A stretch of DNA of 26,237 nt from a virus: positions 1 to 26,237 of IMG/VR virus record IMGVR_UViG_3300044535_001773, one strand, 5' to 3'. The notes below the pieces were generated by a model. It was not told where the DNA came from. It was given only the letters and a program-made list of their open reading frames with translations, and did no database searches. Made by a program: the position numbers and the translations under genes. Positions 4,536 through 22,792 of the stretch are shown here, one piece after another (the stretch's first letter is position 1; every line of letters starts with the position of its first letter).

Positions 4536-4585
4536 TAGTTTTGAGGAAACACGCCCATATCTATTAAGAAAATGAGGTGAAAAAT

Positions 4586-5266
4586 ATGGCATATAACAGA
4601 GGAATAGCTAACAATATTATTGTTGGTGCAGCCGCTTTATTTACATACGAGCCAGGTGTTCTAACTGATAACCTCCTTCCAGCTTACCAGCCAGAAGGAA
4701 CTGTTAATAATACAACAGGAACTTACAGAGAGACACTTGCAAATGCAACTAGCATAACAGCTGGTTTTCGTAACGTAGGTTACACAATGAACGGTCTAGA
4801 GCTACAGTTCCAGCCTGACTTCGGTGAGGTACAGGTTGATCAGGTTCTTGACGTTGCAAAGCTATACAAGCAGGGTATGCAGGTTAACCTGAACACTGCT
4901 TTTGCTGAGGCAACACTAGAGAACTTGCTATTCTCACTAGCTGGTAAGGACGAAGACCTAACCGCAAGTGCAGGAGCTACAGGTATTAAGGCTGGATCTC
5001 CAACCCTAAACCTATCAGCAGGTGACATCGGTGAGTGCCCAGTCGAGCGAGGTCTCGTAGCTGTTGGTCCAGGTACAGGTGACTGTAACCCAGACGAGCA
5101 GATTGAGCGTATCTATGTTGCATACCGTGCACTTTCTATTGAGAGTGTTACAGTATCTGCAAAGCGTGATGAGCCAACAATGTACGAGGTTTCATTCCGT
5201 TTGCTACCAAACGACAGTGCATCTTACGGTAAGATCGTAGACCGCACTATCCCAGCAGTATCATAA
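4586..5266 (+). CDS. Major tail tube protein
   Basis: The product is 226 residues and should polymerise into the tail tube. GAGGTGA at 4574-4580 places the start at the ATG at 4586; the GTG at 4577 lies inside that ribosome binding site. The N-terminus (MAYNRGIANNIIVGAAALFT) is followed by beta-rich sequence with MNGLELQFQPDFGEVQVDQV and a helix LAVAKLYKQG-like stretch near DVLDVAKLYKQG, then the C-terminal AYRALSIESVTVSAKRDEPT and YEVSFRLLPND. This resembles tube proteins of long-tailed actinophages. Codons are of the high-expression class (AAG lysine, mainly CGN arginine) like the capsid gene. Two cysteines (about residues 151 and 168) bound a loop rich in Gly, Val and Pro. Position between the tail terminator protein and the chaperones supports the call. 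Confidence 0.82.
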   Translation: MAYNRGIANNIIVGAAALFTYEPGVLTDNLLPAYQPEGTVNNTTGTYRETLANATSITAGFRNVGYTMNGLELQFQPDFGEVQVDQVLDVAKLYKQGMQVNLNTAFAEATLENLLFSLAGKDEDLTASAGATGIKAGSPTLNLSAGDIGECPVERGLVAVGPGTGDCNPDEQIERIYVAYRALSIESVTVSAKRDEPTMYEVSFRLLPNDSASYGKIVDRTIPAVS

Positions 5267-5290
5267 TTTAATATATAACTTAATAACACG

Positions 5291-5329
5291 AAGCTGTCCA
5301 GTCTTTTTAGGCTGGGCAGTTTTGTTTTT
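5291..5329 (+). terminator. Intrinsic terminator after the tail tube gene
   Basis: CTGTCCAG (5294-5301) pairs with CTGGGCAG (5312-5319) with one G-T wobble. Flanking A-T pairs extend the stem, the loop is ten bases, and the T-rich run TTTTGTTTTT follows. It closes the tube transcription unit just before the promoter of the long chaperone gene. Confidence 0.85.
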
Positions 5330-5333
5330 GCGG

Positions 5334-5339
5334 TATACT
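5334..5339 (+). promoter_or_regulatory. -10 box for a candidate leaderless transcript of the long chaperone
   Basis: TATACT lies six bases before the ATG at 5346, so transcription would begin at or next to the start codon. There is no Shine-Dalgarno sequence between the terminator and the ATG. The -35 position is occupied by the terminator stem. This arrangement is typical of leaderless genes in Actinobacteria. Confidence 0.55.
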
Positions 5340-5345
5340 TATAAG

Positions 5346-6047
5346 ATGGCAACAGAAGCATATGAATCAAAAAACATTACTCTTATAGATGGCACAGAGC
5401 TAACTTTGGTGCCACTTAAAATAAAATATTTAAGACAGTTTATGGAAGCTTTTGAGCTTGTAAAAACGGCAAATAATGATGAAGAAGCAATTATCTTTTT
5501 ATCAAATTGTGCAGCTATAGCAATGAAACAATATTATCCAAAAATAGCAAACATCTCTGACCTAGAAGATAGCATGGACCTACCAGGAATCTATGATGTT
5601 TTAGAGATTGCTGCGGGTATAAAGATTAATGAAAAATCTGAAAATCCAGTAAAAGAGCAGGCTGAGGATAGCGGCTCTTCTTGGGAAAAGCTAGATTTAG
5701 CAAAGCTTGAAGCTGAAATATTTTTGCTGGGGATTTGGAAAGATTACGAAGAGCTTGAGCTATCTTTATCTATGCCAGAGTTGATGATAACCCTAGAATC
5801 TAAGAGAGACCTTGATTATCAAGAAAAGAAATTCTTTGCTGCAATTCAAGGGGTAGACCTAGACAAGAATAGCGGACAGAGCTCTGGAAATAAGTGGGAA
5901 GAAATGAAGGCTAGGGTATTTAGTGGTGGAAAAGCGGCAAATTCAAATGACATTCTTGCCCTACAGGGAGTAAATGCACAGAAGGCTGGATTTGGAATTG
6001 GAATGGGGCTGGGGTATGAAGATCTTACAAAACCCCTTAAAAAATAG
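5346..6047 (+). CDS. Tail assembly chaperone, long form
   Basis: The 233-residue protein has the two-part build of a gpGT-type chaperone in one unbroken frame. Residues 1-97 form the N-terminal domain (ITLIDGTELTLVPLKIKYLR, then AAIAMKQYYPKI and a closing helix). Residues 100-233 form the T-like domain (LGIWKDYEELELSLSMPELM, KRDLDYQEKKFFAAIQGVD, MKARVFSGGKA, GFGIGMGLGYEDL). In most long-tailed phages this fusion arises only by programmed frameshifting from the short form; here no shift is needed. The N-terminal domain is about 40-45% identical by eye to the next gene. Lysine codons in that domain are 7 AAA to 1 AAG, the low-expression pattern. It should recruit the tape measure and tube subunits during tail assembly. 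The 5' end lies just after a -10 box with no ribosome binding site; an upstream in-frame TTG at 5322 is inside the terminator T-run and is rejected. Confidence 0.82.
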   Translation: MATEAYESKNITLIDGTELTLVPLKIKYLRQFMEAFELVKTANNDEEAIIFLSNCAAIAMKQYYPKIANISDLEDSMDLPGIYDVLEIAAGIKINEKSENPVKEQAEDSGSSWEKLDLAKLEAEIFLLGIWKDYEELELSLSMPELMITLESKRDLDYQEKKFFAAIQGVDLDKNSGQSSGNKWEEMKARVFSGGKAANSNDILALQGVNAQKAGFGIGMGLGYEDLTKPLKK

Positions 6048-6055
6048 AGGTTTTT
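6029..6055 (+). terminator. Weak candidate attenuator hairpin at the end of the long chaperone gene
   Basis: AAAACCCC (6029-6036) can pair with GAGGTTTT (6047-6054) with one mismatch around a ten-base A-rich loop, and a short T-run continues to 6055. The stem is AT-rich and overlaps the coding end, so termination, if any, would be partial. It directly precedes the promoter at 6057. Confidence 0.3.
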
Positions 6056-6056
6056 A

Positions 6057-6065
6057 TGTTATAAT
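6057..6065 (+). promoter_or_regulatory. Extended -10 promoter for the short chaperone and tape measure genes
   Basis: TGTTATAAT is identical over nine bases to the sites at 1570 and 22335. No good -35 box is seen. Transcription would start near 6072, leaving a leader with GGAAGGA at 6083-6089 before the ATG at 6100. Confidence 0.7.
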
Positions 6066-6099
6066 AGGTAAAGCCTCATAGCGGAAGGACTAAAATAAT

Positions 6100-6423
6100 A
6101 TGAGTACAGAAGTATACGAAGAAAAGACAATTAAGCTAATTGACGGAACAGAAATTAAGGTTCGTCCCTTAAAGATTTCACTCCTCCGTCCTTTTATGAA
6201 GAAGTTTGAGGGTATTGCAGAAGTTGCAGAGGATAACGACAAGTCAATGAGTATTTTGATGGACTGTGTTCAAATCGCAATGAAGCAGTACAAGCCAGAA
6301 CTGGCTGAAGATTTAAAGACTTTAGAGGAGATTCTAGATCTTCCTACAGTCTATAAGATTGTTGAAGAAGCATCAGGCGTTAAGCTTTCAGAAGTTTCTC
6401 TTGGCGGTCTTAGCACTAATTAA
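6100..6423 (+). CDS. Tail assembly chaperone, short form (paralogue of the N-terminal domain of the long form)
   Basis: The 107-residue product matches the first domain of the preceding gene along its length: TE-YE-K-I-LIDGTE, PLKI--LR-FM--FE, IAMKQY-P and DLP--Y are shared, roughly 40-45% identity by eye. It lacks the second domain. It therefore fills the gpG role, the abundant short chaperone that coats the tape measure during tube assembly. It has its own promoter, and GGAAGGA ten bases before the ATG. All 12 lysine codons are AAG and both arginine codons are CGN, unlike the long form, which points to high expression. The frame ends in TAA 18 bases before the tape measure start, leaving no room for a frameshift extension. 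Calling it a gpG equivalent rests on the paralogy and gene order. Confidence 0.8.
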   Translation: MSTEVYEEKTIKLIDGTEIKVRPLKISLLRPFMKKFEGIAEVAEDNDKSMSILMDCVQIAMKQYKPELAEDLKTLEEILDLPTVYKIVEEASGVKLSEVSLGGLSTN

Positions 6424-6441
6424 ATAAAGAGGTGTTAATGG

Positions 6442-9400
6442 ATGGCTGAAGATGCCAATGCCAGAATAAGAGTTGATATTGATACCGCTGCCGCATTGGC
6501 AAGTATTAAAAATCTTCAACGGCAGATTTCAGCCTTTCACACCAACATGGCTAAGGGTGGTGCAGCAGCAGCTGCAACATCCCTAAACCTACAGCAGGGC
6601 CTTCTTAATAGTATAAATAGAACTGGCCAATTCTCTGCAACTATAAAAAATGTAAAATCTACTACAGAATCTTTTACATCTGCACTTGAAAAAAATAAAC
6701 TCTCTATGCGAGAGTATTTTAGATATTCTGCAGCATCCACTAAGTCATTCGGAAGATTTTTTACTACTGAGTTTGACACAATAAATAAAGTAGCACGTGA
6801 ACGTGTAAAGGATCTTCAGACTCAATATATTAAAATGGGTCGTGATGCTAACGGTGCTATAAGGTCTATTGCTGTCAGGCCTCTAGCCTTAGACATGGAA
6901 AGTCTAAGTACTAAAACTCAGATAGCTGCTCAGAAGCAAGCTCTGCTAAATCAAATGCTAAAGCAGGGGTCTACAAACCTCCTAAACTTTGGTAAAAATA
7001 CCCAGTGGGCTGGACGTCAGCTTATGGTTGGTTTTACTATTCCACTTACAATGTTTGGAACAGTTGCTGTAAAAACATTTATGGAAATAGAAAAACAGGC
7101 AATTCGTTTTAAGCGTGTTTATGGTGAAATGTTTACCACCACAGAGCAAACAACAAAAGCTTTAAATGAAATTAAGAATTTAGCTGCAGAGTTTACAAAA
7201 TACGGAGTTGCAGTATCCAAGACCATGGAGCTTGCAGCAGACATAGCTGCTACTGGTAAGATGGGTGCTGAGCTAACCGCACAGGTTGCACAGGCAACTC
7301 GTCTAGCCGTACTTGGTGGGGTAGAGCAGGCAGAGGCATTAAAAGCAACAATATCTTTAACAGACGCTTTTGGAGTTTCTGCAGAAGAGCTAGCAGGAAA
7401 AATAAACTTCTTAAACGCTGTTGAAAACCAAACTGTAACCTCTATTGAAGACTTAACAATCGCAATTCCAAAAGCTGGACCAGTTGTTCAACAATTAGGT
7501 GGAGATGTTCAAGACCTAACATTCTTCTTAACAGCAATGCGTGAGGGTGGTATTAATGCATCAGAAGGTGCTAACGCCCTAAAGTCTGGTCTTGCAGCTC
7601 TAATTAATCCAACTGGAAGAGCTTCAGAAATGCTTCAAGGTTTTGGTATTAATATCAAAGGCATTGTAGATGCAAATAGAGGAAATGTTAAGGGCATTGT
7701 AATAGACTTTGCTAAAGCTTTAGATACCTTAGACCCACTAAATCGTGCACAAGCAATTGAACAGCTATTTGGTAAGTTCCAGTTTGCACGTCTATCTACA
7801 TTGTTCCAAAACGTTATCAAAGAGGGTAATCAGGCTAGTCGTGTTCTAAAGCTAACAAATTCAACAACAGAAGAGCTTGCAGTTCTTGCTGAACGAGAGT
7901 TGAAAAAAGTTGAAGACTCTCCAATGTTTAAATTTCAAAAAGCTATTGAAGATATTAAGGTTACTCTTGTTCCTCTTGGAGAAGCATTCTTAAAGGCTGT
8001 AACTCCAGTTCTAGAATTTGGAACAAAGATTCTTGAAAAATTTAATGAGCTTGACGCAGGAGCTAAAAGCTTTGTAGTTGGTCTAACCGCTGTGGCTGGA
8101 GTTATTGGTCCAGTATTTCTTATGGGTTTTGGTCTTATAGCTAACGGTGTTGCAAACGTCATCAAGATGTTTACATTCTTTAAAACAGCAATAAATAAAA
8201 CTGGTACAGCTAGTACAGAGCTAGGAATGCAAACTGATTACATGACACAGCAGCAGCTAGAAGCATCTGCAGTTGCCGCATCTTTAAATCAGATTCATCA
8301 AAAACTAACACAAACTTTTACTTCTGAAGCTGCAGCAATTAACAACCTGTCTATTGCTTATAGAAAAGCTTTAGCTGCTCAAAACGGCATGTCTGGAGGA
8401 GCAGTCGCAAGAACAAGGCCTCCAAAGAAATTTGCCTCTGGAGTAATGTCTGTTCCTGGACCTAAGGGGGCTGGCGATGTTGTTCCAGCAATGCTTTCTC
8501 CAGGCGAAGCGGTAATTCCTGCAAAGCAAGCACAAAAGTATGCTCCATTTATTAAAGACATGATTTCTGGAAATGTTCCAGGATTTAGAAATGGTGTTTT
8601 CTTAGGAATGCCAAAGTCTTCAAAATCTGTTACAAAATCTCGCTCTGCAGCAGATGAAATCTATGAGCTATTTAAAAAGAGCAGTTATGTAAATACTCCT
8701 CCAACAGTATACGGTCATCAGATAAGCCCAACCTCTGGACACAGCTTCCCAATTTTTGGACTAGGCGGGGTATATCAAAAGGGCAACAAGCAAGTATTCG
8801 TAAAACCAGTAATGGATGAAAAGGCAGCCCTTGCAGAAATTAGAGCAACTACAATTGCTAGACAGGCTCATGGACTAAAATCTCCAAACCAAAGAGTTGT
8901 TGTTATTAAAGATCCAATGGATGTTAAGAGACAAAGAAAATTCTTGGCACTAGAGTCAGACCTAGACCCTACCTTTATTAATAATCAGCCTTTGGGCGTG
9001 TTCAATGAAGAGCAATACTTTAAGCAGCTTACAGCATCCCTTCTTCGTGGAGATAAAGACCTATCTGCATCCAACGTATACAAGGATGTTTTGGCAGATG
9101 TTGGTCCAGCAGGTGTATTTGACAGAGCATCTGGATTAAGAGATTATTCAAAGAATATTGCTTCTATGGAAGAGCAAGCACTTATAAATCTTCTTGGAGT
9201 TAAGGGTGGAGCAAAACGTGCGTTTGCAGAGTCAACACTAAACTTGATGGATAGACTTACACCACAGCAATATCACCAAAAAATGATTGGGGAAATCCAA
9301 AGAGTTCTTCCAAAGCTAAAGCAGACCATTGCATCATTTAAGCTAACAAATCCAACTGACGTTGGAATGTATGATGACATGGTTAGAAGGCTTGAGGCTG

Positions 9401-12400
9401 GATTAAATGTTGATTGGAGTAAGTTCCACAGCATTCACTCAGCTGTAAAGATTCCAAAACCAAAAGCTCCAAAGGTTGAAGGTTATAAAAAGGGAGTTGT
9501 CTCTGTACCTGGACCTAAGGGTGCTGGCGATATAATGCCTGCTATGCTTTCTCCAGGGGAAGCAGTCATCCCAAGAAAGATAGCCAAGAAGTACGCTCCA
9601 CTAATTAGCGGAATGATTGCAGACAACATTCCTGGCTTTGAAGAGGGTAAGGGATACAAGTATGATCCATTAGAAAAAACTGTAGAGACACATTTACAAG
9701 AGCCATCTACAGTTATTAGAGGAACTCCTGGATATAACCCTGAGTTAGCAGAAAAACTTGCTGCTAGTACCCCAGTTAGACAAATGGATATAGAAGGCCA
9801 AGCTCGTGTATCTGCATATGGAGACTTATTTGCAAATCTTCCTAGGTCTCTTAATGAAAATCTAAAAAGAGATGCTGGAGTTGCTATTGAAGAATTTGAA
9901 AAAGCTTGGGAGGGAACCTCTAATAAGTTTACAAAAACTCTTAAAAAGGGTTACAAAGATTTGGGAATGGCCTTTGATCCAAAAAATCCAATTATTGCGT
10001 CTGAAATTGCAGATATGGAAAAGAGCATTAAGAATAATGTCAGAAAACTTGCACAAAAAAATGGCGGAATTGTTAATGACACAATTGTTTCGCAAGCTAC
10101 GGCTCAAGCAGTCCAAACTGGGGCTTCTCGTGGAAGCAGTGTTGCAAAAGCTCTTCGTAGCAGGGCAAATTCCTTAAGAGAATATAGAACAAATTATACA
10201 GCAGAAGAGCTACGTGGTGGAGTTAAGTCTGGAAAGTTTAAGATTGAAAACGCCAAAGGCGGCGGAGGAAAGATTGTAGATCCAAAGTCAGGAATGACAA
10301 TCGGAAGAGTTGACAGCAGAGTTGGAAAAACCAGACAACAACAAATGCAAACATTTAATTCTCTATCTGGAGATGAAAGAAATGCATATGTTGACCAGAT
10401 GGGGTTGAGGTCAGATTCAAAAAAGACTACTTATAAGGGGGGCCAAGCTCAGGCTCAGGCAAAAGTAGTAGAAGTTGCTAAACAGCAAAGACTAGCAGCT
10501 GCGTCTAACCAAGCTCTTTATGGAACAACAGAATTTAATCCACAAATGCGTCAAGAAAGAAAAAGACAAGAAGCTGCAGCTAAAGCCGCTAATGCTCAAG
10601 CAGCTAGAGAAAGAAAACTTCTTGCAACGCAAAAAACTGCTACTGTACAAGCTCAGAAACAAGCTGCAGCAAGCCCTCAGGCGGCCACTACAACGCCTGG
10701 ACCACGAAGGCCTGGAATGGGGATGGGCGGAATGGCTATGGTCGCTAGCGGGGCCCTAATGGCTGGTTCTATGGCTCCAGGAAGTGTAGGAGAAATATCT
10801 CAGCAACTAATGATGCCTGCAATGTTAGCATCTATGATTTTGCCGATGGCAGGAGCTTTTGCTCCAGTAATTGCAGGCCTTGGAGCTTTGGCCGCTGGAG
10901 CTTGGGCACTAAAGAATGCTTTTGACTCAGCTGAAAAGTCTGCAAGAGAAAATGCATTAGCAACTGGCTCAAGTACTGATGCAATTAAAAACTTTGCAGA
11001 ATTTGCTGGCACAGCTTCTGCTGGCGAAATTATGGATAAGAAAAGAAGTGGGGCACTAGAACAGTTTGGTATTCAGTCAGGAAAAGAATCTTTTGGAAAT
11101 CTATTCTTGCAGAGTGAAGGAGCAAAGCCACTTCTTGAAGGCCTAAAGGCTTCTATTGCATCTGGAGCAACTAAAGAAAGTATGGTAGCTGGCACAAAGA
11201 ACCAGTTAGCAACAGCAGTAGCTAGCGGAGCTTTAACTAGAGATGAAGCTGCATCAATTGCAGGAAGTCTTGGAGAAGCTATTGGAGATAGAAGCTTTGG
11301 AATAAAGGTTGTTGGAGAGCTAAATCAACTTATTGGAATTGATGGAAGAAACCTTCTTGAAAATCCAATTGATCTCCGTGTAAGGCTAGTAGAAGAAACA
11401 AACAGCAAGCTACAGGGTATGGCACAAAGCTCAGCAATACCTAACGCACAAGGACAAGTCTTAGGAGGAGGAGCTCTTGCTGCTGCAGGCGGTGCCATTG
11501 GAGCAAATCTTGGAAAAGCAGGCGGTGCTCTTGCGGGTGCCAAAGTTATATCAATGGTTGGAGCTTTGGCTAATGCAGGAAAAGTTGCTACTCTTGTTGC
11601 AAGAATTGGATCTTTTGGTGGACCAATAGGTGCTGTTGCTGGTGCTGTCGTTGGTGCAGCAACAGGAGCCGTCATGCTATACGATGGTATGAAAAAAGCT
11701 GGTGCTGCTGCTGGTGCTATGAATGCTCAAGGTATTATAGGTTTGCAACAAAATCAAGAAATGCTAGACTCTTTAGATCTAGAATATCAAAAACGAATTG
11801 CTATTGCAAAGTCAGCTGGAGACCTTGTTGAGGCAAATAGGCTTGCAAAAGAGCTAGAGCAGGGTAGAGGGGAACTTTTAACTGCATCTCAAAATACCAT
11901 GAAGATTCTTACTGAACAATATAACGCTGCGGGTCCAGACATTTTTGGCATGAATACTATGAGAACTTCTTTAGACACAGCCTTAAACTCTATGTATAAA
12001 GACAACCCTTTAATGCAGCAAGTTATGGCGGGATCTAAATCTGCTATTGAAGGATCGTCTGCAACTGGAGAGCAGCAATATAACCTAAAGCTTATGCTAG
12101 CTAGCGGCAATGTTGATCCAGGAACAATGGCAAACCTATTAGGTGTTTTTGGAAATGACCAAGAGACTATACAAAAAATTATTGACATTAGTCTAAAGCT
12201 AGGAACTGCAGATGCAGGAAGAGCATTTGCTTTGGCAGATTTGTTTAAAGATGAAGGCGTAAAAGCAGACTTTATTGCTAAAGTTCAGACAAAGACTGCA
12301 CCACAAGCTCAAAAACTTTTAACTATGTTTGAAACTGTGCAACAGTCTGGCGGAGTTCTAGACATGGAAATGGTCTTAACCGCATACATGGCAGATGAAA

Positions 12401-14799
12401 CTGCTGGAAATCAGCTTATTCAGGACCTAGAAGAATTTAAAGCAGCACAAGAAGCTGGACCAATAACAACAACTGTAATTAATCAAGTATTCGGCAAAGA
12501 TGCAATGGATGCTGTTATGAAAGATTGGGAGTATTTCAGCGGTCTAGATAAAGACATGCAGCTTACCTATATGACCCTAGTACAAACTGCTTTTGAAACA
12601 GTAGAAAATAATCCAGACGCCTACAATACTTGGGCCGCAGTTCAAAAAACAGCTGGTAAAGACTATTCTAAACCAGCCTACTTTGCTAGTGTTGGCAACC
12701 AGGGAACCGTAGCTAAAGCTCGTACAGATAGCATGACAAAAGAAACAGAAACACCATCTTCAGGTGGAGGAAGACAAGCTGATCCTCTAGACAATATTTT
12801 AAAGTCTCTTCAAAATGTAAGAAAAGCTTCCATCGATGCTTTGGGTGGGACAAAAGAATTATTTAGGCTATTTGAAAATGGAAAAAACATTTCAGCATTT
12901 AATGGAATTGAGAATCAGCTATTAGCCTTAACTTCTAACACTGACTTTGCAAACTTTATTTCTGGTCTGGACAAGCAAGAGCAAGACCTGTTCATTACTA
13001 TTAAGAAGGGCAATGTTGAATTAACCCAGAGGGGTCGCCTGCTAGAAAAAGCTTATCAGGCAAACAGTATTGGAAACTTTGTCTTGTCTCAGCAGAAACT
13101 AGTAATATCATCTAAAAATGAACTTACCGCTAGGAATCTTTTGATTGATGCTGGCTATAGCTATATAGAGGCTTCAGAGCTGGCTAGAGACGCAACCATT
13201 CGAGAAGCATATGCGGACGCAGCATCAATTAAAAATAAAAAGGACAGAGCAGAAGCTATTAGAAATCTTAATAAAGCTTTAAAAGAGGGGGCTGATGCCC
13301 AAAAGGCAAATCGTACTTTTGAAGAAATATTTGATGATGGATTTGGCAAAGCAATGGAAGCATTTGAGGCACAAGAGAAAAAGCTTACTTTAGAATTTGA
13401 TGTAAAAGTTAAAGCAGACAAGGAAATAATTGAGGCTGCACAAAATGAGATTGCAAAAATTCAATATCAAATTGATGACTACGAAGCAGATCTCAAGGGT
13501 GTTGAAGACCAAGAAACCAAAATTAATAAAACCTATGACGATAAGCTGGATGCTCTTGAAAAGGTTAAAAATGCAAATCAAAAAATTCTTGATCAAGAAA
13601 AAGGAAAGCTGTCAATTGCTGAGGCGATTACTCGTGGTGACCTATATGCTGCTGCTCAAGCAGCACAACAGGTTAGAGAAACATCAGCATCTGGTTATTT
13701 TGGAAGCCAGACTTCAGCTTTGCAGGCAGCAAGAGAAAGTGCTCTTGAGCAAGTTAGGTCAAAATCAGGATTATCAAGAATACAAATAGAAGAAAAAATT
13801 AAAGAACTTTCTAATCAAATATTTTCTATTGAAGAAACAAGATTAGAGCCTGCAGCTGAAAGAGTTAGACTTGCAGAGGTTGAGCTACAAAAAAGAATTG
13901 CTGAAATTACAGTTTTAGGAAATACAAAGGCTCAGTGGGAAGGTATTAAGAACGGGATTGATTTAGCTAAAGTAAACAGCGATGCTTATAAAAAGTCAAT
14001 AGAAGAAGCACTAGCTGTTGTAGAAAAGTTAAAGCTTGCCTGGGCTGGAGTAGGTCCTCCAAAGGATGAGCCCCTAGTAGTAGATGACAAAGATGAGAAG
14101 AATAATAAAGACGAAAAAGTCCAGAACAAGGGTATTATTACTGTAAAAGACCCAGTTGTTCAAGATCCAAAATTTACAAAAGCTCAAATTGAAGCTAAGG
14201 AAAGAGCTGTAGAACAAGCAAAAAAGAACCAAGCAACTGCTACAAATGTTAAAGCCTCTGTTGGAGCTCCAGCACTAAACGATCCTCTAGGCCTTAGTAA
14301 AATAATTCCTCCATCTATTATAAAGTCAGTAAATGACTTCGGTAAAAATGTTCAGAATACTGTTGTTAACGCTTTCAAGTCAATCTTGCCTAAGCCAGCT
14401 CCCGCTCCAGCCCCAAAGGCTGCACCTAAGCCATCTGGCCCAGCTCCTGGAAGAAGTGTAAGAAGCTATATGGCTGGTGGAGGAAAAGTTGGCTACTACC
14501 CAATGGGCGGTCTAATACCATATATGTCCGCTGGCGGCCCATTTAAAACTATTAATACAGACAGTGTTCCAGCAATGTTAACTCCTGGAGAGTTTGTGAT
14601 TCGTAGATCCGCTGTCGATAATTTTGGGGTAAAAAATTTAGAGTCTATTAATAAAAAAACATTTGATGGCAGTTCAGTGTATAATTATAACTTAAGCGTT
14701 AACGTTTCTTCTGTTTCAGATCCTAACGCTATTGCACAAACCGTAATGTCTCACATCCGCAAGGTCGAGTCTCAAAGAATAAGGAGCAACAAGTTCTAA
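6442..14799 (+). CDS. Tape measure protein, 2785 residues
   Basis: This protein sets tail length and is expelled during DNA delivery. AGAGGTG at 6428-6434 fits the ATG at 6442; an ATG at 6438 is out of frame and stops after three codons. Visible order: a helical N-terminus; a TP901-type tape measure core at about residues 190-450 (AELTAQVAQATRLAVLGG, AMREGGINASEGANALKSGL); a hydrophobic stretch at 544-584; a first VPGPKGAGD module (667-718); a kinase-like region (about 735-1008); a second module (1018-1069); charged helices; hydrophobic Gly/Ala-rich segments at about 1428-1497 and 1676-1755 that could cross a membrane; long helical regions; a coiled coil at about 2300-2535; a Pro/Ala linker near 2650-2675; and a final VPAMLTPGEFVI motif. 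At the usual 0.15 nm per residue the upper limit for tail length is near 400 nm, less if globular inserts do not count. The TAATG junction couples it to the next gene. Confidence 0.95.
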   Translation: MAEDANARIRVDIDTAAALASIKNLQRQISAFHTNMAKGGAAAAATSLNLQQGLLNSINRTGQFSATIKNVKSTTESFTSALEKNKLSMREYFRYSAASTKSFGRFFTTEFDTINKVARERVKDLQTQYIKMGRDANGAIRSIAVRPLALDMESLSTKTQIAAQKQALLNQMLKQGSTNLLNFGKNTQWAGRQLMVGFTIPLTMFGTVAVKTFMEIEKQAIRFKRVYGEMFTTTEQTTKALNEIKNLAAEFTKYGVAVSKTMELAADIAATGKMGAELTAQVAQATRLAVLGGVEQAEALKATISLTDAFGVSAEELAGKINFLNAVENQTVTSIEDLTIAIPKAGPVVQQLGGDVQDLTFFLTAMREGGINASEGANALKSGLAALINPTGRASEMLQGFGINIKGIVDANRGNVKGIVIDFAKALDTLDPLNRAQAIEQLFGKFQFARLSTLFQNVIKEGNQASRVLKLTNSTTEELAVLAERELKKVEDSPMFKFQKAIEDIKVTLVPLGEAFLKAVTPVLEFGTKILEKFNELDAGAKSFVVGLTAVAGVIGPVFLMGFGLIANGVANVIKMFTFFKTAINKTGTASTELGMQTDYMTQQQLEASAVAASLNQIHQKLTQTFTSEAAAINNLSIAYRKALAAQNGMSGGAVARTRPPKKFASGVMSVPGPKGAGDVVPAMLSPGEAVIPAKQAQKYAPFIKDMISGNVPGFRNGVFLGMPKSSKSVTKSRSAADEIYELFKKSSYVNTPPTVYGHQISPTSGHSFPIFGLGGVYQKGNKQVFVKPVMDEKAALAEIRATTIARQAHGLKSPNQRVVVIKDPMDVKRQRKFLALESDLDPTFINNQPLGVFNEEQYFKQLTASLLRGDKDLSASNVYKDVLADVGPAGVFDRASGLRDYSKNIASMEEQALINLLGVKGGAKRAFAESTLNLMDRLTPQQYHQKMIGEIQRVLPKLKQTIASFKLTNPTDVGMYDDMVRRLEAGLNVDWSKFHSIHSAVKIPKPKAPKVEGYKKGVVSVPGPKGAGDIMPAMLSPGEAVIPRKIAKKYAPLISGMIADNIPGFEEGKGYKYDPLEKTVETHLQEPSTVIRGTPGYNPELAEKLAASTPVRQMDIEGQARVSAYGDLFANLPRSLNENLKRDAGVAIEEFEKAWEGTSNKFTKTLKKGYKDLGMAFDPKNPIIASEIADMEKSIKNNVRKLAQKNGGIVNDTIVSQATAQAVQTGASRGSSVAKALRSRANSLREYRTNYTAEELRGGVKSGKFKIENAKGGGGKIVDPKSGMTIGRVDSRVGKTRQQQMQTFNSLSGDERNAYVDQMGLRSDSKKTTYKGGQAQAQAKVVEVAKQQRLAAASNQALYGTTEFNPQMRQERKRQEAAAKAANAQAARERKLLATQKTATVQAQKQAAASPQAATTTPGPRRPGMGMGGMAMVASGALMAGSMAPGSVGEISQQLMMPAMLASMILPMAGAFAPVIAGLGALAAGAWALKNAFDSAEKSARENALATGSSTDAIKNFAEFAGTASAGEIMDKKRSGALEQFGIQSGKESFGNLFLQSEGAKPLLEGLKASIASGATKESMVAGTKNQLATAVASGALTRDEAASIAGSLGEAIGDRSFGIKVVGELNQLIGIDGRNLLENPIDLRVRLVEETNSKLQGMAQSSAIPNAQGQVLGGGALAAAGGAIGANLGKAGGALAGAKVISMVGALANAGKVATLVARIGSFGGPIGAVAGAVVGAATGAVMLYDGMKKAGAAAGAMNAQGIIGLQQNQEMLDSLDLEYQKRIAIAKSAGDLVEANRLAKELEQGRGELLTASQNTMKILTEQYNAAGPDIFGMNTMRTSLDTALNSMYKDNPLMQQVMAGSKSAIEGSSATGEQQYNLKLMLASGNVDPGTMANLLGVFGNDQETIQKIIDISLKLGTADAGRAFALADLFKDEGVKADFIAKVQTKTAPQAQKLLTMFETVQQSGGVLDMEMVLTAYMADETAGNQLIQDLEEFKAAQEAGPITTTVINQVFGKDAMDAVMKDWEYFSGLDKDMQLTYMTLVQTAFETVENNPDAYNTWAAVQKTAGKDYSKPAYFASVGNQGTVAKARTDSMTKETETPSSGGGRQADPLDNILKSLQNVRKASIDALGGTKELFRLFENGKNISAFNGIENQLLALTSNTDFANFISGLDKQEQDLFITIKKGNVELTQRGRLLEKAYQANSIGNFVLSQQKLVISSKNELTARNLLIDAGYSYIEASELARDATIREAYADAASIKNKKDRAEAIRNLNKALKEGADAQKANRTFEEIFDDGFGKAMEAFEAQEKKLTLEFDVKVKADKEIIEAAQNEIAKIQYQIDDYEADLKGVEDQETKINKTYDDKLDALEKVKNANQKILDQEKGKLSIAEAITRGDLYAAAQAAQQVRETSASGYFGSQTSALQAARESALEQVRSKSGLSRIQIEEKIKELSNQIFSIEETRLEPAAERVRLAEVELQKRIAEITVLGNTKAQWEGIKNGIDLAKVNSDAYKKSIEEALAVVEKLKLAWAGVGPPKDEPLVVDDKDEKNNKDEKVQNKGIITVKDPVVQDPKFTKAQIEAKERAVEQAKKNQATATNVKASVGAPALNDPLGLSKIIPPSIIKSVNDFGKNVQNTVVNAFKSILPKPAPAPAPKAAPKPSGPAPGRSVRSYMAGGGKVGYYPMGGLIPYMSAGGPFKTINTDSVPAMLTPGEFVIRRSAVDNFGVKNLESINKKTFDGSSVYNYNLSVNVSSVSDPNAIAQTVMSHIRKVESQRIRSNKF
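8440..8595 (+). repeat. Tape measure module, copy 1 (VPGPKGAGD..PAMLSPGEAVIP)
   Basis: Residues 667-718 match residues 1018-1069 closely, with VPGPKGAGD, PAMLSPGEAVIP and KYAP all kept. Over the 66 bases from 8455 and from 9508, 54 are identical by my count. The two copies are exactly 351 codons apart, so they are in frame with each other, and they bracket the kinase-like region. Confidence 0.88.
8644..9465 (+). other. Kinase-fold-like domain inside the tape measure protein
   Basis: Residues about 735-1008 show motifs in the order and spacing of a protein-kinase-type fold. There is a glycine-rich beta hairpin ending in a lysine (LGGVYQKGNKQVFVKP, Lys788), a helix with a glutamate 11 residues later (Glu799, ALAEIRATTIARQAHGL), a hydrophobic strand (RVVVI), and then GDKDLSASN (Asp873, Asn878) with the Asp-x4-Asn spacing of the RDLKPEN catalytic loop. 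Next comes GVFDRAS (Asp894), 16 residues after the Asn, where a metal-binding Asp would sit, followed by helices. HipA-like and PI3/PI4-kinase-like folds share these features. It is read by eye with no structure or database support, and could be an inactive relative. Boundaries are approximate. Confidence 0.5.
9493..9648 (+). repeat. Tape measure module, copy 2
   Basis: Residues 1018-1069 repeat the module of residues 667-718 (VPGPKGAGDIMPAMLSPGEA, then KKYAPLISGMIADNIPGF). It follows directly after the kinase-like region and marks its C-terminal border. Confidence 0.88.
14566..14601 (+). repeat. Third, divergent copy of the PAML-PGE motif near the tape measure C-terminus
   Basis: Residues 2709-2720 read VPAMLTPGEFVI, related to the PAMLSPGEAVI core of the two internal modules but without VPGPKGAGD. 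This form is common near the C-terminus of actinophage tape measure proteins, so the internal copies probably derive from the same module. Confidence 0.6.
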
Positions 14800-22317: not shown

Positions 22318-22336
22318 CACAAAAGCTTGATTTGTG
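22318..22336. promoter_or_regulatory. Candidate operator dyad overlapping the promoter at 22335
   Basis: CACAAA (22318-22323) and TTTGTG (22331-22336) form a perfect six-base inverted repeat with a seven-base spacer. The right arm overlaps the TG of the extended -10 box. It could bind a dimeric repressor or activator, or be a weak RNA hairpin; there is only one copy, so it is tentative. Confidence 0.35.
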
Positions 22337-22343
22337 TTATAAT
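22335..22343 (+). promoter_or_regulatory. Extended -10 promoter, candidate leaderless transcript of the fibre gene
   Basis: TGTTATAAT is the third exact copy of this nine-base element. Its -10 box ends five bases before the ATG at 22349, so transcription would start at or next to the start codon. There is no ribosome binding site upstream of the gene. Confidence 0.65.
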
Positions 22344-22348
22344 TAGCT

Positions 22349-22792
22349 ATGGCCAAAATTCCAACTCCAGATAGAGGACAGCCTCTAGATGTATCATATG
22401 TTTATCAAATTGTAGAAGCAATTAACGATCTTTCCTCACAAATATCTTCAGCAAGATACAAGTACGCATCTATTGATACTACAAGTGGAAATGAAAGCAC
22501 TTTGCTTACAGACACAAAAGTAGTTGCTGGAGAAAAAGTAATTTACCCTACCCTCACAAATGTTACAGCCGAAACTACACAGTCTTTTTCTTACTCTTTT
22601 AAAGGAGAGTATAAGTATCCTCCAATTGTAACTATTACCCCAGTTTTAATTGAAGGAACTTCGTCTGGTCAAGACGTATCAGTTGTTATTCAAAGCGTCA
22701 CTAACTCATCAGTTAATGGTATTGTTCGTTTTAATACAGGAGGGTCTTTGGCCCTTAAGGTCCACATTATTGCAATAGGTATTCCAGACTAA
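22349..22792 (+). CDS. Small tail fibre / receptor-contact protein
   Basis: The 147-residue product begins with AKIPTPDRGQPLDVSYVYQI and a short helix (VEAINDLSSQI), a pattern typical of the attachment or trimerisation segment of short phage fibres. The C-terminal part (about residues 75-147) is a beta domain (FKGEYKYPPIVTITPVL, VNGIVRFNTGG) closing with LKVHIIAIGIPD, reminiscent of H-type lectin-like fibre tips. It lies last in the tail module. It has its own promoter and no ribosome binding site, so it can be expressed separately from the tail operon. A receptor role is inference from fold type and place. Confidence 0.62.
   Translation: MAKIPTPDRGQPLDVSYVYQIVEAINDLSSQISSARYKYASIDTTSGNESTLLTDTKVVAGEKVIYPTLTNVTAETTQSFSYSFKGEYKYPPIVTITPVLIEGTSSGQDVSVVIQSVTNSSVNGIVRFNTGGSLALKVHIIAIGIPD

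Follow-up and report, generated by a model that had tools for sequence, protein, structure and literature searches.

The window analysed here, the full 26,237 bases of an IMG/VR virus record with capsid, tail and replication genes, encodes its tail assembly chaperones in two separate genes, a long one (L) that is open in a single frame and a short one (S) that repeats its N-terminal domain. Taking the evidence as a whole, we consider it likely that this is a two-gene chaperone in which the ratio of the products has been moved from a ribosomal frameshift to promoters and translation starts. Nearly all long-tailed phages produce a short and a long chaperone from one gene by a ribosome slip. Few recoding events in phages are as conserved as this frameshift, and the ratio is crucial for tail assembly in lambda, whose gpG and gpGT were reportedly studied by Levin (1993) and Xu (2004, 2013).

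Organization of the chaperone locus

The features of the locus are as follows.

4577..5266, + strand: major tail protein (MTP) gene; phrog_2175, E 4e-31, Ig-domain protein
5288..5331, + strand: predicted intrinsic terminator between the MTP gene and L, a 17-bp hairpin followed by a T-run; RNA fold -26.1 kcal/mol
5334..5339, + strand: putative -10 box of L, TATACT, 6 nt before the ATG; leaderless-type start, no Shine-Dalgarno
5346..6047, + strand: L, long tail assembly chaperone (gpGT-like), 233 aa, N-domain and T-domain in one frame
5346..5645, + strand: N-domain of L (LN), G-like diverged copy, 46% identity to S
5676..6044, + strand: T-domain of L (LT), 50% identity to the -1-frame T of Streptomyces phage Elmer
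6057..6065, + strand: putative extended -10 promoter of S, TGTTATAAT; TTAAAA at 6037 is a possible -35
6083..6089, + strand: Shine-Dalgarno-like GGAAGGA of S, from sequence
6100..6423, + strand: S, short tail assembly chaperone (gpG-like), 107 aa; groups with single-copy G proteins, dN/dS 0.05
6429..6434, + strand: putative ribosome site of the tape measure protein (TMP) gene, GAGGTG, from sequence, inside the 18-nt gap between S and TMP
6442..14799, + strand: TMP gene, 2785 aa; phrog_10030, E 7e-101

The reading frame of L is uninterrupted from the ATG at 5346 to the TAG at 6047, which bears out the preliminary description of the long chaperone as one unbroken gene of 233 residues; that of S runs from the ATG at 6100 to the TAA at 6423. 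Residues 1-98 of L align with residues 1-100 of S at 46% identity and 72% positives (E 1e-29), with a score of 230; shuffled S scores 33 +/- 6, and the highest of 2000 shuffles reached 66. S had been read as a second copy of the N-terminal domain, and this holds; the identity estimated by eye, 40-45%, was slightly low. L matches one PHROG family per half, phrog_10504 on residues 1-100 and phrog_10474 on residues 130-213, and of these two S matches only phrog_10504, with a score equal to that of L.

S stops 18 bases 5' of the TMP start at 6442, and neither of the other two frames is open, so that S cannot be extended into a T-domain, as had been proposed. The order MTP - L - S - TMP, with the long gene first as described before, is kept in relatives with complete ends, and a GAGGTG-like motif precedes TMP in most fused loci. 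In Streptomyces phages, the gene annotated as major tail protein has the same position as the MTP gene here. Since the Streptomyces relatives carry G followed by a -1-frame T at the matching place, L corresponds to G and T joined in one frame, and S to a second G. No RNA element or tRNA was found in the window.

The locus shares with gpG/gpGT its position between MTP and TMP and a pair of products consisting of a short N-domain protein and a long protein with N- and T-domains, and both L and S are homologous to annotated chaperones of Streptomyces phages. Production of the long form by programmed frameshifting at a slippery site is not a feature of L, which has one open frame and no conserved heptamer. 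The model of L matches predicted viral proteins, several of them named tail assembly chaperone. Foldseek gave no significant match of the S model in the PDB, and a comparison with the HK97 chaperone (HK97 gp13, PDB 2OB9) gave a weak, third-ranked match (Z 4.1 over 85 residues, rmsd 4.6; VIA-align 2).

Two states of the locus among relatives

We ran G and T profiles over 337 loci drawn from five viral-contig scans, the Streptomyces records and the window. Each collection scan contributed its best 80 loci, and the survey is thus a sample. All but six loci were complete (331/337), the others lying on contigs whose end falls within the locus. Among the matches listed, 126 loci have a single G with T at a -1 offset (89 distinct G sequences), and 205 have a fused G-T followed by a second G (140 distinct), the latter including the window and two extracts of the window itself. 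The survey for the two-gene arrangement that had been suggested earlier thus found it to be widespread in this sample. Neither a fused gene without S nor a frameshift plus S was found among the 331 complete loci listed, further scans included. In these loci a T in the -1 frame and an S copy are mutually exclusive, and the co-occurrence of fusion and S is perfect; this supports the proposal that duplication and fusion replaced the frameshift.

One locus is irregular in another way. At L053:263-1204, one A is missing in the A-run before the L stop, and the L frame continues into S, which is in a different frame; this is either a sequencing error or a real homopolymer indel.

Among isolated phages, the nearest relatives are Stanwilliamsviridae that infect Streptomyces (127 records, the best at 39-42% identity over L), and all those looked at are in the single-gene state. 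With L, S and Elmer G as tblastn queries, no isolated phage relatives outside Streptomyces were detected, and a search of genome contigs with L gave no prophage or bacterial homologues. Because a WhiB-type regulator gene is present in 12 of the 13 large contigs of the group (G001-G013, 80-125 kb), its hosts are probably actinobacterial; the window is too short to hold WhiB. The group probably represents a large set of freshwater phages of actinobacteria.

Start signals and predicted dosage

Start signals were counted in 95 nonredundant fused loci and compared with shuffled sequences. Promoters and terminators are here matches to a consensus, and their support is their conservation. A hairpin and T-run are found 5' of L in 95/95 fused relatives, compared with 3% in shuffles; in the window this hairpin, at 5288, was missed by the automatic terminator scan and found by RNA folding. 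A -10 box matching at 5 of 6 positions lies 5-11 nt from the L start codon in 94.7% of the 95 loci (5% in shuffles). It is a perfect TATAAT in 15 of them, and none has a Shine-Dalgarno of 5/6 or better at L. The L promoter is probably leaderless and modest. Leaderless phage promoters have been described in actinophages (PMC4351075).

The signals of S are of another type. A perfect TGnTATAAT is present in all 95 fused loci, compared with 0.4% in shuffles, at a median of 27 nt from the start codon, and 76% have an AGGAGG match of at least 5/6. Most single G genes of the frameshifting relatives show this same layout of extended -10, leader and AGGAGG, and S has therefore kept the ancestral type of start signal, L having a leaderless-type one. 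A weak hairpin at 6029-6055 (-5.5 kcal/mol) also hinted at a terminator insulating L from S; this candidate was rejected, as 0/95 relatives have one.

Codon usage was scored against that of the major tail protein (own score 0.686), a measure that correlates with expression and does not measure amounts. The scores are 0.635 for S, 0.489 for LN, 0.503 for LT and 0.561 for the TMP gene. S scores above LN in 87 of 88 fused loci, and G above T in 52 of 55 frameshifting loci, the latter being the pattern anticipated when the short product is abundant and the long one rare. Both codon usage and start signals are consistent with an excess of S over L.

The excess of the short over the long form would most likely be set before elongation. 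The terminator would stop transcripts coming from the MTP gene, the leaderless promoter with its usually imperfect -10 box would give low-level L, and the perfect extended -10, leader and ribosome site would drive high-level expression of S and the TMP gene, into which L transcripts would also read through. The dosage once provided by frameshifting thus seems to have been replaced by transcription and initiation signals, which seems to be new here. That the two products can be dosed independently, as put forward in the preliminary description, finds support in the separate conserved promoters and in codon usage. The layout of promoters and terminator, like the T4-like precedent considered below, was absent from that description.

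Origin and divergence of the two genes

When the T tree is rooted on the Streptomyces lineages, the fused group emerges after several frameshift lineages found on viral contigs. Strict monophyly of the fused loci is broken by one row alone, L161, which lies beside a frameshift clade with weak support, and one origin of the fusion is not rejected by the AU test (p-AU 0.58). The TMP tree likewise places single-copy lineages basally. The basal position of frameshift lineages lends further support to replacement of the frameshift by duplication and fusion. Strict monophyly is broken on the TMP tree as well: L203 is a frameshift-type locus, yet its TMP N-terminus is nested in the fused clade. Recombination or reversal are options, and L203 is perhaps a recombinant. 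Weak resolution and recombination perhaps account for the two exceptions.

On the G tree, the LN sequences group in a clade with 100/100 support, and the branch leading to it measures 1.16 changes per site, whereas the S clade (support 94/85) lies among the single-copy G proteins and has a branch of 0.088; the S of the window shares 61% identity with the single G found in a frameshifting contig (L155). From these branch lengths and placements, S is the conserved G and LN the diverged copy; by this comparison of sequences, S has kept the ancestral sequence and LN has diverged. The two genes thus appear to have evolved independently, as suggested earlier. Purifying selection acts on all parts, with median dN/dS of 0.05 for S, 0.05 for T and 0.12 for LN, and on S it makes translation of the gene very likely.

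The trees fit a single duplication with frameshifting as the state at the root. The ancestor would have had one G gene from which T was reached by -1 frameshifting. The locus would have been duplicated in tandem; the first copy, fused in frame, would have become L and lost its slip site, and the second, by losing T, would have become S. The end state of duplication and fusion is seen directly in the comparison of loci; the order of these steps we infer.

The divergence of LN raises the question of function. In a combined reading, the recoding ratio was converted once, in what are now about 140 distinct sequences, to a terminator, a weak leaderless promoter and a strong leadered promoter, and the N-domains also became specialised, S as the coat of the tape measure and L as the initiator at the tail tube. 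We put this forward only tentatively, as somewhat less probable than its contrary. Specialisation in which the ratio of G to GT matters little, S being the TMP coat and LN a dedicated initiator at one end, is rather doubtful: the long LN branch (1.16 compared with 0.088 for S) and its higher dN/dS are in its favour, but faster change in LN may just reflect lower expression or fewer binding sites, and the dosage signals are still strongly conserved.

The G tree could also be read as horizontal acquisition of S from a frameshifting relative, after which the resident gene was fused. S is indeed nearer to the single-copy G of frameshifting relatives than to the LN of its own genome, and L203 suggests exchange of tail modules. 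However, S forms a clade of its own, the layout is uniform, and unequal rates after a tandem duplication would give the same tree; we regard acquisition as unlikely.

Loss of the slippery site

In-frame heptamers of the form X-XXY-YYZ (XXXYYYZ) were sought near the G/T junction in a nonredundant set of 55 single and 95 fused loci. Of the 55 single loci, 46 have a heptamer near the end of G (0.89 per locus, compared with 0.15 expected); CCCAAAC, CCCAAAT and GGGAAAC together make up 46 of the 49 heptamers. For two phages, Yaboi and TunaTartare, the -1 frameshift is annotated as a joined CDS. The nine single loci without a heptamer form one Streptomyces subgroup, with GAC-CCG-GAA at the corresponding place. 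Loci of the Boydwoodruffvirinae (L083, L084, L096 and others) are without the canonical heptamer of all other frameshift relatives and have GAC-CCG-GAA there. In the same region of the fused genes, heptamers occur at 0.18 per locus compared with 0.26 expected (n=95), at scattered positions. The L junction of the window has none; the sole heptamer of its L is an AAAAAAC near codon 9. This loss of the heptamer in fused genes is a further argument for replacement of the frameshift.

These counts speak against the view that L still yields short product by residual frameshifting or slippage at the G/T junction, with S an auxiliary paralogue having another task. A few fused genes (L109, L020, L049 and others) have slippery heptamers near the junction, at chance level; A-runs or CCCAAAT lie near it in L020, L049, L052 and L109, and in the window stops in the other frames near the junction mean that a shift would yield a short protein. 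Yet heptamers in fused genes are below chance and not conserved in position, and it is S that resembles the ancestral G and that has conserved signals and a codon usage of the strongly expressed type. We find this view very improbable. That the arrangement is an artefact of assembly or sequencing, conceivable for a metagenomic virus contig, is refuted by its recurrence in 140 distinct sequences from many samples under purifying selection.

Relation to known systems

In lambda, gpG forms a coat on the TMP and a small number of gpGT recruit the tube protein, the ratio of about 30:1 being obtained by a -1 frameshift (PMC5009743). Like that of lambda, the locus described here lies just 5' of the TMP gene, encodes a long form with a T-domain and is predicted to give the short form in excess; unlike lambda, the window has two genes and no slip site. 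By analogy, S would cover the tape measure protein in the manner of gpG, and a small number of L molecules would, like gpGT, bring in the tail tube protein through the T-domain.

The Stanwilliamsviridae (Elmer, Braelyn, Yaboi, TunaTartare) share with the window the G and T domains and their place between MTP and TMP, and the Elmer group also has a terminator, an extended -10 and an AGGAGG leader upstream of the chaperone gene. They differ from it in having one gene, with a -1-frame T reached by frameshifting, and no second G (127 records, one place each).

Some T4-like phages have a short chaperone gene and, in place of a frameshift, a fused long one, as stated by the authors of PRFect citing Vladimirov et al. 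2022 (PMC10885494). The window resembles these phages, as that statement describes them, in its separate short and fused long genes. The T4-like phages are contractile-tailed, and, within what the statement covers, frameshifting relatives that show the direction of change are a feature of the present group. In some Microbacterium phages of cluster EA, two chaperone ORFs are present and no frameshift is evident (PMC7302621). Their ORFs, as in the window, are apparently expressed separately, whereas a duplicated N-domain or a fused long gene is not described in them (PMC7302621). Given these precedents, the principle of a short plus a fused long gene is already known. What is new is its occurrence in the present lineage, the frameshifting relatives that give its direction, and the conserved layout of promoters and terminator; we found no paper in the open-access literature describing any of these for this lineage.

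A clear loss of the frameshift in a group whose close relatives on the G tree and on the T tree still use it amounts to a natural experiment on dropping recoding. The answer that these sequences suggest is to duplicate, fuse, add separate promoters and keep the codon bias on the abundant form. For annotators, two-chaperone loci should not have a frameshift forced on them.

Similar signals elsewhere in the window

A -10 element is present in every intergenic gap of the window longer than 30 bases (at 1570, 4527, 5334, 6057 and 22335), so that separate promoters look like the general way in which this phage sets amounts. A second leaderless-type start is found at 22335-22351, where TGTTATAAT-TAGCT-ATG stands directly 5' of the gene at 22349-22792. 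After the major capsid gene, at 1512-1598, a hairpin of about -24 kcal/mol is followed by TGTTATAAT, AGGAGG and the ATG at 1598, the same layout of terminator, promoter and ribosome site as at the chaperone locus.
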